A DNA stretch of 64,000 nt from Hyphomicrobium album (GTDB lineage Bacteria; Pseudomonadota; Alphaproteobacteria; Rhizobiales; Hyphomicrobiaceae). The position numbers and the translations under genes were made by a program. This document shows positions 6,898 through 10,709 of this stretch, one piece after another (within the stretch, counting starts at the first letter, position 1; each line of letters begins with the position of its first letter). Below the pieces are notes generated by a model, which worked only from the letters and a program-made list of their open reading frames with translations, was not told the DNA's origin and made no database searches. The DNA lies in NCBI RefSeq assembly GCF_009708035.1, contig NZ_WMBQ01000001.1, forward strand, positions 2,423,501-2,487,500, given 5' to 3'.

Positions 6898-8229
6898 TCA
6901 GCTCGCGCGGGCGGCCTTGGCGCGTTTGCGTGGAGCGCCGCTGGCCGGTGCGGCGGGAGGAGCATCGTCGGCCGCCGTGTGATCATCGAGGCCCGAGAGA
7001 ATCGCGCGGGCTCTCCCCTCGATCGCTTGCGTGACCTGCTGCATCAGCGGATGCGCGCCGGCCGGCATCGCGGCGACGTCGGCGGCGGCGTTCTTCGCTT
7101 CGGCGAGCGCGCCCTTTGCCAGGGCCTCGACGCGCGCGATGAGGCGCGGCGCGTTGAGGCCGACGTCGGCAGCGAAGCGCTGCCAGTGGCGCCGCTTCAG
7201 GTGCTCGCCGCGGGTCTTGCCGGCGATCTTCTGCGCCATGTTGCGCGTCACGTGCTCCCAGGCGAGCCCGCACATCACGTCGTAGATCGGCGCCAGCTTG
7301 AACCCCTTGCCGGAGATCATCATCGAGTAGTTCTTGGCGTGCGCGTCGGTGTTGCAGGCGAGCACGTTGAAGACGACGTAGTCGAGCAGGTTGACGACGT
7401 CGGGCGCCTGCATGGCGTTGCGCGTCACCGCGAAGATCTCGGCGAGGGTAGGCCCGGGGATGCCGGTCTGGTTCGACTCGTATTTGGCCGACGGCGGCTT
7501 GCCGAGCGCCTGGCAGAAATCCTCCTGGTGCAGGCGCCGCCAGCGGCCCTGCTGCTCGATGCGGTCGTAGCGCTTGACCATCAGGTAGGTGCGCTTGCCG
7601 GCTTTGCCGGTCGTCACCTCAGGCGTGTTGAGGCCGAGGCGCTTGGCGAGCACCAGGCACAGCGCCTCGTTCTGCACGCCGCCGAACAGTCGCTCCGCAT
7701 CCGGTTTCAGGATCCACGTCGACGGCGCGCCGTTGATCGGCACGCAGATGCGGTCCTTGGCGTCGACGGCGACGCCGAGCTTCGTCTGCACGCCGGCGAG
7801 CGACATCGACACGCCGTCTTCGCCGACGAGAAATGGCTTCGACGGCAGCTCCTCGAGGATTTTCTCCAGCGCCTTGTCGTTCGGCACGGGGCGCCAGTCG
7901 GCGGTCGAGGTCGTGCCCGGCTTGCCGATCGACAGCGCGCCGGCCGTGTCGCGGCCGAGCTCGGCCAGGATGCCGATGACGTCCTCAGGCGCGGCGCCGA
8001 GCTGCAGGCCGATGGCGCGCAGCTGCGTCGACTCCGGCAGCAGGTTCGCCGCCCAGGGCAGGAACAGCTTGGGCGGCACGCGGCGCGGCGACAGCGGCAT
8101 CAGCAGCGACAGCGGAAAAGCGCCGCGCGTCGACAGCCAGATGGGCGCGTAGGTGAAGCTCGGGCCGTCGGCATGCACCGCGATGGTGCCGACCCTGCGG
8201 TTCTCGTAGTAGACCGCGATCTCAGCCAC
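6898..8229 (-). CDS. hipA: HipA-family Ser/Thr kinase toxin
   Basis: A 443-residue kinase of the HipA type, whose characterised members phosphorylate aminoacyl-tRNA synthetases or other translation proteins and cause growth arrest. The N-terminal subdomain (1-100) contains LPWAANLLPE. The flexible loop SLAGVQTK has Ser143 at the place of the autophosphorylated serine. Catalytic elements are intact: Lys175 (WILKPD), the NTDAHAKN loop at 293-300 with Asp295, and Asp317 of APIYDV. It overlaps the upstream hipB frame by 8 bp, typical of translational coupling in a toxin-antitoxin pair. The Ala/Pro/Arg-rich last 30 residues are an extension without family matches I recognise. Confidence 0.93.
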   Translation of the reverse strand: MAEIAVYYENRRVGTIAVHADGPSFTYAPIWLSTRGAFPLSLLMPLSPRRVPPKLFLPWAANLLPESTQLRAIGLQLGAAPEDVIGILAELGRDTAGALSIGKPGTTSTADWRPVPNDKALEKILEELPSKPFLVGEDGVSMSLAGVQTKLGVAVDAKDRICVPINGAPSTWILKPDAERLFGGVQNEALCLVLAKRLGLNTPEVTTGKAGKRTYLMVKRYDRIEQQGRWRRLHQEDFCQALGKPPSAKYESNQTGIPGPTLAEIFAVTRNAMQAPDVVNLLDYVVFNVLACNTDAHAKNYSMMISGKGFKLAPIYDVMCGLAWEHVTRNMAQKIAGKTRGEHLKRRHWQRFAADVGLNAPRLIARVEALAKGALAEAKNAAADVAAMPAGAHPLMQQVTQAIEGRARAILSGLDDHTAADDAPPAAPASGAPRKRAKAARAS

Positions 8230-8563
8230 GGCCGTCGTCCTCGAGATCGGGGAGGTCGTCGCTGAGGTCGGGCAGCAGGGCGTTGTCGTCGTCGTTGTTG
8301 GCGCTCATCAGGTCGAACGGACGCAGGCCCACCGCCGCCGCTACGACGAGCGCGCGGCCGAGCTGGCAGGATGCTTTGCCTGCCTCCAGCTCGAGGATGA
8401 AGCGGCGGCCGACCCCGGTGGCCAAGGCCAAGTCGTCCTGGCGCATCTTCAGGGCTTCGCGCCGCTCGCGCACCAGCGCACCGAAGTGCTTGGCCTGGGT
8501 GCCGGCGGCGGTTTCGACGTCGGATTTCGGGCGGTCGGAGATACGTTCGGATTGGCTGGCCAT
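8222..8563 (-). CDS. hipB: HipB-like XRE-family antitoxin and autorepressor
   Basis: A 113-residue protein with a Cro/C1-type helix-turn-helix at about residues 29-85 (ALVRERREALKMRQDDLALATGVGRRFILELEAGK compressed here to its family pattern). The tail from residue 90 is very acidic (repeated Asp), an arrangement that could contact HipA. It lies immediately upstream of hipA and overlaps it. Three spaced palindromes precede its start and are the natural candidates for its operators. HipB proteins normally bind HipA and repress their own promoter as a complex. Confidence 0.9.
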   Translation of the reverse strand: MASQSERISDRPKSDVETAAGTQAKHFGALVRERREALKMRQDDLALATGVGRRFILELEAGKASCQLGRALVVAAAVGLRPFDLMSANNDDDNALLPDLSDDLPDLEDDGRG

Positions 8564-8582
8564 GAGCGCCTCGGCTGCGATG

Positions 8583-8596
8583 TTCCCGCTCGGGAA
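8583..8596. promoter_or_regulatory. hipBA operator candidate O1
   Basis: TTCCCGCTCGGGAA: 6-bp arms around a 2-bp centre at 8589.5. It lies 19 bp before the hipB start codon, inside the predicted 5' leader. Confidence 0.75.
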
Positions 8597-8630
8597 GTTA
8601 TGGCGGGATTCGCGGCTTTAGGCGAGCCGT

Positions 8631-8648
8631 TGTTCCCGTTCGGGAACA
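8631..8648. promoter_or_regulatory. hipBA operator candidate O2
   Basis: TGTTCCCGTTCGGGAACA: perfect 8-bp arms, centre at 8639.5, exactly 50 bp from O1. It overlaps the predicted -10 box and start point, so binding here would block transcription. Confidence 0.8.
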
Positions 8649-8673
8649 TATGGCGCCGAAACGACGGCTTCAA
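8645..8673 (-). promoter_or_regulatory. Predicted hipBA promoter
   Basis: On the minus strand TTGAAG (8673-8668) and TATGTT (8650-8645) are separated by 17 bp. Each box matches the sigma-70 consensus at 4 of 6 positions. The -10 box lies partly within palindrome O2. Confidence 0.5.
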
Positions 8674-8681
8674 GGGTAAAA

Positions 8682-8697
8682 GTACCCGCTCGGGAAC
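8682..8697. promoter_or_regulatory. hipBA operator candidate O3
   Basis: GTACCCGCTCGGGAAC: same palindrome with one mismatched pair, centre at 8689.5, exactly 50 bp from O2. It lies just upstream of the predicted -35 box. Confidence 0.7.
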
Positions 8698-8753
8698 ACC
8701 GAAGCCACGATAGTGCGGTCGCCCGCGTCATTCGGGGTGCGGAACGATAGGGA

Positions 8754-9356
8754 CTACCGAGTCGTGGGCTTTGCGCGTGGCTGAAGACTGTCTGGAAGCT
8801 GCGTTGTCCGCCCAAATCGGGCATGGGCGCTAGCCGTCTTCCGCACCTCGCTTTCAAGCACGAGAATCCGATCACGAACCTTAGCTAGGTTTTCGATGGG
8901 CTCTGGCGTCGCCGTGAAATATCCAAAGCCGTGGTCATCACTCTTGGACAGGAACACTGCGCCGTCCCTTGAGCGCGTGAACCACAGTCCATGTGCATAG
9001 TCATTGCGCGCTGTCCGCAACGCGCTGTATTCGGAGAGTAGCCCGTCGTACTCGTCGCCAAGTTGGGCATTGTTCGGCGACATCTCCAAGAGTTCACGAA
9101 GAACGTCGTGGCGGATGTTTGGATTGCGGAGAGTGCGGTAGACGTAGCCAGCGGTGCGTTCGTCTTGTAGCCCCAGAAGTATGGAAAGCAGTTGGGGCAT
9201 CGCCGTTTCGAGGTGCTCAAACGCCGAGATTATGTTGGCTAGCAGCGCTCCGTATTTTTCGTTGGTAAGTGCGCACGTGTAGGCCTCGCCTCCGGGTGGG
9301 CCGCCGTTAAGGTCTATCTGCCACTTATAGCGGCGCTTTTTGCGAGGCGTGTTCAT
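8754..9356 (-). CDS. HEPN-like protein with RX4H motif
   Basis: A 200-residue, mostly helical soluble protein. Residues 117-122 read RNDYAH within the segment LRTARNDYAHGLWF. This fits the RX4-6H signature of HEPN ribonucleases, where a polar residue follows the arginine; the long helices before it (ANIISAFEHLETAMPQLL) fit the HEPN bundle. The start at 9356 is chosen because the further upstream reading to 9554 has Pro/Ser-rich low-complexity content antisense to another frame. It lies upstream of hipBA on the same strand, 190 bp away, and its start codon overlaps that of the divergent gene at 9355. HEPN domains act in toxin-antitoxin and phage-abortive systems; whether this one is catalytic is unknown. 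Confidence 0.6.
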   Translation of the reverse strand: MNTPRKKRRYKWQIDLNGGPPGGEAYTCALTNEKYGALLANIISAFEHLETAMPQLLSILLGLQDERTAGYVYRTLRNPNIRHDVLRELLEMSPNNAQLGDEYDGLLSEYSALRTARNDYAHGLWFTRSRDGAVFLSKSDDHGFGYFTATPEPIENLAKVRDRILVLESEVRKTASAHARFGRTTQLPDSLQPRAKPTTR

Positions 9357-9585
9357 GGCCAATCCAAAAGACAAAAAACAGACGAATGAGTCGATGGAGC
9401 GCATGAATGAAACGCTCAAGGCAGCATTGAACACGCTGCCGCGGAAGCACAATAACGAGCCGAAGCGGCGCGGCGATGTGGAAGAATCGCCACCGCCCAA
9501 GGGCGGTGAAGCGAAAGGCGAAGTGCGAGAGCGCAGGATAAGCTCTTGCACCACCCAGTGCCTTCACCACAGTCTGCTGCACTGA
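9355..9585 (+). CDS. Small charged protein, divergent partner of the HEPN-like gene
   Basis: A 76-residue, strongly charged protein (MANPKDKKQTNESMERMNET at the start, then a Lys/Arg/Glu-rich stretch) with no hydrophobic segment. The ATG shares the CATG tetranucleotide with the HEPN-like gene's ATG on the other strand. A GAGG lies 8-9 bp upstream. The first 45 residues could form one amphipathic helix; the rest looks disordered. It might be an antitoxin-like partner, but only position suggests this. It could also be non-coding. Confidence 0.42.
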   Translation: MANPKDKKQTNESMERMNETLKAALNTLPRKHNNEPKRRGDVEESPPPKGGEAKGEVRERRISSCTTQCLHHSLLH

Positions 9586-9609
9586 CGGTGAAACACGGAA
9601 GGATATTTT

Positions 9610-9825
9610 ATGTGGCTTGAGCTCACGCAGGTTTCTGGAAGTCGGATTTTCGTCAACACGGATCTTGTGATTAGCTTTGAGGGTTTTGGAGACAAGGGTT
9701 CAACCCTGCGATTTACAGTTGGAGGTGGGCCGCACGACGTTAACGTGCAGGAGACCCCCGACATGATCGCCAAGCGAACTGGGTCTAGGAGGGCGGGCGG
9801 CGCTAGGCGCGCCAAATCGAAATAG
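9610..9825 (+). CDS. FlbD-like small beta-rich protein
   Basis: A 71-residue protein. The first 50 residues (MWLELTQVSGSRIFVNTDLV, then a short insert, STLRFTVGGGPHDVNVQETP) follow the FlbD pattern of a small SH3-like barrel. FlbD proteins are best known from flagellar operons, but stand-alone copies occur in accessory regions. No flagellar gene is nearby. The last 15 residues are Arg/Lys/Gly-rich and could bind nucleic acid. GGAAGGAT precedes the start. Function here unknown. Confidence 0.6.
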   Translation: MWLELTQVSGSRIFVNTDLVISFEGFGDKGSTLRFTVGGGPHDVNVQETPDMIAKRTGSRRAGGARRAKSK

Positions 9826-9921
9826 AGCAGCGCAAGTAGGCGCCGTCACAAAGACGACCTTGAGTTGCCGGTTAGGCCGCCAATGGATCCAAGGATTGCG
9901 GATCGGCGAGAGTCACCACAG

Positions 9922-9937
9922 GTTCCCGATCGGGAAC
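9922..9937. promoter_or_regulatory. Orphan operator-like palindrome P1
   Basis: GTTCCCGATCGGGAAC is a perfect 16-bp palindrome, centre 9929.5. It has the same arms as the hipBA palindromes but no hipB gene next to it. Confidence 0.75.
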
Positions 9938-9971
9938 ATTTAGTCGGATGTCGACCGTCGCGGGCACCAAA

Positions 9972-9987
9972 GTTCCCGATCGGGAAC
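9972..9987. promoter_or_regulatory. Orphan operator-like palindrome P2
   Basis: An identical copy of P1, centre 9979.5, exactly 50 bp from P1, the same spacing as between the hipBA palindromes. Confidence 0.75.
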
Positions 9988-9998
9988 CTCCGAGGGGA

Positions 9999-10034
9999 TG
10001 CAAGCGCGTGCAATCGCACTGCAAAGCGCTGCAA
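9999..10034 (+). repeat. Four helically phased TGCAA direct repeats
   Basis: TGCAA starts at 9999, 10009, 10020 and 10030, steps of 10, 11 and 10 bp, so all four face the same side of the helix. An inverted copy, TTGCA, follows at 10045-10049. The 9826-10065 gap otherwise holds only palindromes P1 and P2. Confidence 0.6.
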
Positions 10035-10065
10035 TTTGACGTGTTTGCACGCCGAGGCGAAGTGA

Positions 10066-10590
10066 TCAGCGGATGCCGAACTCGTTGAAGCACTGGCGCA
10101 TGTAATCGCACCGGTGCGAGCCGGAGAAGTGCATCGCATCGCCCTTGGCCGGGGAGATGAATTGGCAGATCTCCTCGACGCCGCCCGGCGACAGCCAGCC
10201 TTGGCGGCGACCGCGCTGCACGGCGAAGCAGTCGGCGGTTTCCTCGTCGGGACCGCGGAACTGGTGGCCGCACTCGTGCGAGTAGATCCACAGCTTCACC
10301 GGCGTCGTCACGCGCGACAACAGCCGCATGTTCATGATCAGAAAGCCGGGATAGGCGGCGCCGTAGTCGTCGAGGTTGTTGTCGATGACGGTGGGGCGCG
10401 TGCCGCAATAAAGCTTGATGCCGTCGAGCTTGAACTCGCCCGCCGGGATGATCGTCGCCTCGCCGTTGGTGTGGGAGATGTACTCCTCCGGCGACGGCGA
10501 CTTGGGGTCTTGCGCCAAGGCCCAAGGCGGCGTTGCCAGCAGTACGATCAGGCCCCAGGCCAAGCGGCGCGCGCCGCGGCGGATGATCAT
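10066..10590 (-). CDS. Exported zinc-protease-like protein (HECGH)
   Basis: A 174-residue protein with an N-terminal signal peptide (basic start, hydrophobic core, cut probably after ALAQ near residue 27). The mature part has HECGH at 105-109 and an ExxAD motif at 116-120, the pattern of gluzincins where the Glu is the third zinc ligand. Six cysteines (62, 107, 121, 142, 161, 167) suggest disulphides in the periplasm. The start at 10590 is preferred over an in-frame start at 10632 because it places the signal peptide at the N-terminus. The protein is shorter than M48 peptidases, and the substrate is unknown. Confidence 0.65.
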   Translation of the reverse strand: MIIRRGARRLAWGLIVLLATPPWALAQDPKSPSPEEYISHTNGEATIIPAGEFKLDGIKLYCGTRPTVIDNNLDDYGAAYPGFLIMNMRLLSRVTTPVKLWIYSHECGHQFRGPDEETADCFAVQRGRRQGWLSPGGVEEICQFISPAKGDAMHFSGSHRCDYMRQCFNEFGIR

Positions 10591-10709
10591 CGCAATCTCT
10601 TGGAGTTCCCGGCCCCTAATGGACCCTACCATGGCGCCGTTTAGGGCCTGTTACAAGCGCCGCGCGGTAACGCCCGTGAATGGCTGTGCGTGGCGCGGTC
10701 AAGGCCCGG

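Follow-up and report, generated by a model that had tools for sequence, protein, structure and literature searches.

Two HipB-type operators set apart from hipB in Hyphomicrobium album: the probable far end of a hipBA operator row split by inserted DNA

The hipBA locus and its five operators

The window (the whole stretch of 64,000 nucleotides of the Hyphomicrobium album genome analyzed here) encodes a hipBA toxin-antitoxin module accompanied by five copies of one palindrome, three of them before hipB and two at a distance (Table 1). Both genes match their Pfam families above cut-off; against TIGR03070, the window HipB scored 57.6 bits, under the cut-off of 71.65. Between sites 3 and 4 lie 1,224 bp holding a 200-aa gene and two small open reading frames (ORFs). 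An earlier note, made from the sequence alone, had described the distant sites as two identical 16-bp palindromes with a 50-bp step, and a motif scan of the window found GTTCCCGATCGGGAAC exact at both positions. It had also claimed arms and step in common with the hipBA operators, and the hipB side indeed has three copies (8582, 8632, and 8682), again with a step of 50 bp. The flanking genes are convergent as described, the plus-strand partner (9610-9825) being a short ORF without a family match above cut-off and the minus-strand partner the conserved neighbor gene.

Table 1. Features of the hipBA locus (positions within the window)
Feature	Position	Strand	Remarks
hipA, kinase toxin of the hipBA module	6898-8229	-	PF07804 and PF13657 above cut-off
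hipB, helix-turn-helix (HTH) antitoxin	8222-8563	-	PF01381 above cut-off
Operator 1	8582-8597		Next to hipB start; one mismatch to motif; window scan
Operator 2	8632-8647		Exact motif match; window scan
Operator 2-3 spacer, best candidate hipB promoter	8648-8681	-	TTGAAG, 17 nt, TATGTT; -10 overlaps operator 2
Operator 3	8682-8697		GTACCCGCTCGGGAAC, one mismatch to motif; window scan
Putative inserted DNA, ~1,190 bp net	8698-9921		Low GC, single-copy, not in the rows of five congeners
Cargo gene, 200 aa, HEPN-like by R-x4-H motif only	8754-9356	-	No Pfam, NCBIfam, or PADLOC family
Small cargo ORF, 76 aa, doubtful	9355-9585	+	No family
Small cargo ORF, 71 aa	9610-9825	+	FlbD match E 0.024, below cut-off
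Operator 4, first of the reported pair	9922-9937		Exact
Operator 5, second of the reported pair	9972-9987		Exact; 78 bp from stop of 10066-10632
Conserved neighbor gene, marks far row end in relatives	10066-10632	-	In all 8 genus genomes searched

At up to three mismatches, the window contains five sites against a mean of 0.55 in shuffled sequence, and five were reached in none of 100 shuffles. Across the genome (3,908,169 bases in three contigs), GTTCCCGNNCGGGAAC occurs exactly three times, always in the window (8632, 9922, and 9972), and three times with one mismatch (8582, 8682, and a lone asymmetric site on contig C2). Five of these six sites fall within 8582-9987, namely the three before hipB and the reported pair. 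Allowing two mismatches adds 25 sites, and the resulting total of 31 is below the 43 of a reversed control pattern, so the two-mismatch sites are at chance level. The palindrome is thus not common outside the hip locus; the earlier note had said that the opposite finding, a common palindrome, would speak against its reading. Its description of operator-type sites without an adjoining hipB likewise holds: the motif is exact, and the hipB start is ~1.36 kb away.

The operator class in bacteria and viruses

A pattern scan for paired copies of TTCCCGNNCGGGAA found at least 119 bacterial stretches, and four of the 119 listed belong to Hyphomicrobium congeners. A HipB-like ORF lies within 300 bp in 105 of those listed; in one more (L111), the HipB lies just outside the stretch, 76 bp away, where TIGR03070 places it next to the pair. 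This company of HipB in 106 of 119 listed stretches argues that the motif belongs to HipB. Of the 158 steps of less than 200 bp between exact sites in these stretches, 144 measure 49 or 50 bp. At no more than one mismatch, most stretches hold two or three sites (45 and 69 of 119), with four sites in 3 stretches and five in 2. The 105 HipBs share a recognition region, R-F-I/x-x-L-E-x-G-K (R in 98%, F in 99%, E in 100%, and K in 98%), which the window HipB also carries, and the genome encodes one strong HipB of this class, the next matches reaching 28 and 23 bits. These rows at hipB therefore resemble the window in motif, step, and HipB class; they differ in that most have two or three sites and none among the stretches listed is split by an insert. 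The window pair has the TTCCCGNNCGGGAA palindrome exact at both sites and the 50-bp step of the class, but not the adjoining hipB, the putative insert lying between; the ancestral row proposed below would have adjoined hipB.

Thirteen of the 119 listed pairs, kept in that count, have no adjoining HipB. Four (L025, L118, L046, and L064) were rejected as lone pairs, being likely repeats or coding coincidences with steps of 46 or 52 bp or tandem copies; the other nine have steps of 49 to 51 bp. As a genome-level test for HipB, TIGR03070 was abandoned because it rang in 13/13 lone-pair genomes and 14/14 controls, and only its position beside a pair was used (L111). One lone pair, in a genome of the same family (G003; L142:6790-6853), precedes a gene of the Fic family (Fic_N, 1.7e-29; Fic, 7.8e-21) by ~150 bp; that gene is possibly under HipB control away from hipBA.

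Similar arrangements are known from two other systems. The E. coli K-12 hipBA operator has the consensus TATCCN8GGATA, and in strain MG1655 (L235) four exact sites follow one another at center-to-center steps of 28, 39, and 28 bp. There, several palindromes follow one another before hipB, and the HTH dimer of HipB is reported to bind them (PMC8262856). The window is alike in having several palindromes in a row before hipB and unlike in sequence, in step (49-50 bp versus 28/39/28), and in that all E. coli sites stand in a single row before hipB. In Caulobacter crescentus, hipBA1 and hipBA2 are each preceded by regular, identical inverted repeats, and the available portion of that report mentions neither a split row nor a lone pair like those in the window (PMC7029023).

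Viral sequences gave the more surprising thread, which was unexpected. The same pattern retrieved 59 stretches from IMG/VR (L175-L233), with steps of 49 bp in 31, 50 in 20, 51 in 7, and 52 in 1; the step is thus 49-50 bp in 51 of 59, or in 25 of the 32 that remain once like spacers are collapsed. Control step ranges of 31 values each gave 10 stretches (66-96 bp) and 7 (14-44 bp), two of which also belong to the first set, and the reversed control pattern gave none. A HipB lies within 300 bp in one of the 59; the other 58 fetched stretches contain no HipA or HipB match. A search of the complete records behind 50 of the 51 pairs with a 49-50-bp step gave a marginal match in one of the 50 (E 7e-4), many of the records being fragments. 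The records inspected carry phage genes (terminase, portal, and head in L225; terminase in L222; single-strand-binding protein in L199), and in L210 a DNA polymerase and a ribonucleotide reductase flank the pair. Phages from several lineages each have a single pair, with a 49-50-bp step and A/T-rich flanks as in the bacterial rows. We do not claim that viral pairs are intergenic as a rule: a naive ORF of at least 60 aa covers 25 of the 51 with a 49-50-bp step, a crude division of coding from intergenic sites.

Two further observations concern these pairs. Four of the 51 (L186, L202, L230, and L232) are no more than 10 bp away from a tRNA gene, and three of these pairs sit in tRNA gene arrays, which comprise 24, 22, and 17 genes. 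This company is suggestive because Caulobacter HipA is reported to act on aminoacyl-tRNA synthetases (PMC7029023). Separately, six of the 10 viral stretches in the wide control range have steps of 71-72 bp (L236, L237, L239, L240, L242, and L243); these, the 28- and 39-bp steps of E. coli, and the 49-50-bp step are about one or two helical turns apart from each other, a spacing that would suit a requirement for one DNA face.

Among the papers listed in an open-access literature search, none described a split row or operator pairs of the HipB type in viruses. It is conceivable that HipB-type pairs lacking both hipB and a promoter form a class of their own, in which phages use them as sinks that draw HipBA to their own DNA, or to keep HipA inactive in an assembly on DNA, and so blunt HipA-caused arrest in the course of infection; the window pair would then be their equivalent on a chromosome and have the same physical effect. 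We offer this as a tentative proposal of low probability.

Operator rows in congeners and the inserted DNA

The genus set comprised eight genomes, that of the window included. Five congeners (G033, G035, G036, G038, and G039) share the order 10066-10632 gene, operators, hipB, hipA, within a wider common order of leuC, a methyltransferase-like gene, a zincin gene, the 10066-10632 gene, operators, hipB, and hipA; four of the five also gave a lysR match. In each, a single row of five or six operators runs between hipB and the orthologue of the neighbor gene. G036 and G038 have five sites each with at most one mismatch; G035 and G039 also have five, the fourth with two mismatches and the fifth degenerate (three and two mismatches, respectively); and G033 has six. 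All steps are 49-50 bp except one of 67 bp in G033, where the spacer between operators 4 and 5 (L137, reverse strand 7587-7637) has grown from 34 to 51 nt through an 18-bp piece that exactly matches the end of an insertion-sequence-like stretch nearby (about 10500 on the same strand). Beyond the row, the last operator lies 73 bp from the orthologous stop codon in G035 and G039, with no gene between. In G036 and G038, a small membrane-protein-like ORF, possibly a SemiSWEET, separates row and neighbor gene; in G033 the two are separated by ~2.9 kb of other DNA, part of it an insertion-sequence-like end.

The DNA between sites 3 and 4 of the window has the character of a foreign insert. The step from site 3 to site 4 is 1,240 bp, which minus one 50-bp step leaves 1,190 bp net. 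Its GC content is 56.8%, compared to 64.9% for the window, placing it in the lowest 0.5% of same-size segments, and only the insert region itself reaches GC that low. GC3 is 65% in the main cargo gene and 92% in hipA. No insert-like stretch occurs in the operator rows of the five congeners, and a search of the genome for a second copy gave only chance matches (E of at least 0.34). For the main cargo gene, the seven congeners gave no match and the other 95 genomes of the family three weak ones. Relatives were found at E 0.001 in 19 of 397 genomes of the order, the window's own counted, the best other sharing 32% identity. Four plasmid records, all from Bradyrhizobium, matched at 28%, and among viral contigs no match was confirmed.

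HEPN proteins, such as the HEPN ribonucleases, are defined by an R-x4-6-H motif, which the cargo gene carries as RNDYAH and which recurs in 13 of 14 distant homologous loci; a family profile match, the other mark of a HEPN protein, was missing above cut-off in Pfam, NCBIfam, and PADLOC. At 9352-9360, the cargo gene (minus strand) and the first small ORF (plus strand) begin on overlapping ATG codons (CATG), which casts doubt on one start or both. The right-hand join of the insert probably adjoins site 4, because the 34 nt to the left of that site score -14.7 and -15.8 on a matrix of operator spacers, at or below the lowest true spacers, compared to -1.7 for the 34 nt to the right of site 3.

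We propose, with a probability of roughly 0.8, that the pair represents the far end of the autoregulatory hipBA operator row, stranded by this insertion. The ancestor would have had an unbroken row of five operators at 50-bp steps running from hipB to the 10066-10632 gene; as in other rows of the class, operators would have stood on either side of the hipB promoter with further ones upstream. About 1.19 kb of foreign DNA, bearing the HEPN-like gene together with one or two of the small ORFs, would then have landed between operators 3 and 4, so that three operators stayed next to hipB and two next to the neighbor gene. The insertion reading draws on the gene order common to the five congeners, on the count, since the three plus two sites of the window equal the five of four relatives, and on the distance from last site to neighbor stop, 78 bp compared to 73 bp, an agreement that rests on the degenerate fifth sites of G035 and G039. 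The low GC and GC3 and the lack of a congener match for the cargo gene point to foreign origin, and the 18-bp piece in G033 gives a precedent for DNA entering a row spacer. Such a split row is ordinary in kind and unusual in form.

Against insertion, neither a target-site duplication nor terminal inverted repeats of at least 7 bp were found at the split, save the operators themselves; G034 and G037 have neither hipBA nor operator sites at the syntenic place; and, by eye, the sequence between last site and neighbor stop shows no visible conservation. Both sites of the pair are very probably bound by HipB to this day, either by itself or together with HipA, given their perfect match to the motif, the single strong HipB of the class in the genome, and its conserved recognition region. 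The stranded pair may now take part in looping repression over ~1.2-1.4 kb, soak up HipBA, or have no effect.

Other explanations and wider meaning

Whatever the origin of the pair, selection might today be keeping it as a sink for HipBA or as an anchor for a loop, a view compatible with a split row. Both of its sites are perfect whereas sites 1 and 3 are imperfect, and viral records contain pairs of the same geometry without HipB, which lend some indirect support to the decoy role suggested in the earlier note. However, a recent insertion alone would also leave perfect sites, the viral pairs have no link to this host, and none of eight named phages, related by one protein to two or three of the viral groups, carries a pair. 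We regard present-day selection as unlikely.

A less probable account makes the pair a separate copy, either a duplicated row unit or the promoter scar of a lost second hipBA locus, the latter a role that the earlier note had put forward. Compared with the second spacers of G035, G036, G038, and G033, the spacer within the pair scores 7-8, reached in none of 500 shuffles each, while against the fourth spacers, where these could be aligned, it scores -1, 2, and 0; spacer 1 of the window, in turn, resembles spacer 2 of G033, G036, and G038. This closeness to second rather than fourth spacers implies that row units were duplicated, lost, or moved, in keeping with the gain and loss of 50-bp units in the relatives' rows, and the pair could be such a copied unit. 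Yet no hipA or hipB remnant lies beside it, the surrounding ORFs belonging to the insert on the left and to the conserved neighbor gene on the right, and the genome gave a single strong HipB match. The distance to that gene fits an original row, and syntenic comparison shows one row here in five congeners, which the three plus two sites of the window match, so a scar of a second locus is not favored.

A HipB-controlled promoter of an unannotated RNA or gene at the pair is very improbable. In the class, the hipB-proximal spacer is the one that appears to hold the hipB promoter, as TTG stands at the -35 place in 52 of 96 such spacers, compared to 3 of the 96 when these are read in reverse and 7 of 63 other spacers. 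In the window, the operator 2-3 spacer combines this TTG with a matrix score of 10.6, which makes it the best candidate for the hipB promoter. The pair spacer has no such TTG in either direction; nor is a promoter expected in distal spacers. On the matrix built from 96 hipB-proximal spacers, it scores 4.7 and 5.4, above the lower quartile of true promoters (2.1) and below their median (7.5), and its A/T-rich ends could act as a -10 box. These shared ends carry most of the matrix score, however, and some distal spacers of relatives reach 8-11 and viral spacers have a median of 4.7, so that the -35 TTG count, 3/25 and 0/25 in the two directions for viral spacers, is the better discriminator. A scan for sigma-70-like sites gave none in 8400-10200, although it also missed the hipB promoter. 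No promoter is evident in the pair spacer. The Rfam matches at the pair were sub-threshold: mir-767, an animal microRNA family, matched both strands, at 28.6 and 27.7 bits where the cut-off is 90, and was rejected as an artifact of the palindromes. That the palindromes are transcription terminators, or another protein's sites similar by chance, can practically be set aside: they lie between convergent genes and could fold into hairpins, but no T-run follows them, a terminator scan found none there, and chance falls far short of explaining their identity to the hipB row in motif and step.

Read as the stranded end of one row, the pair would make this locus a natural experiment in toxin-antitoxin control, in which unbroken relatives serve as controls and the part played by distal operators becomes measurable. 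More widely, TTCCCGNNCGGGAA twice at 49-50 bp is a simple signature for recognizing hipBA rows in many phyla and for spotting virus genomes that have the operators but lack the antitoxin. If phages do use such pairs as sinks, these would be a counter, made of DNA only, to a growth-arrest system.
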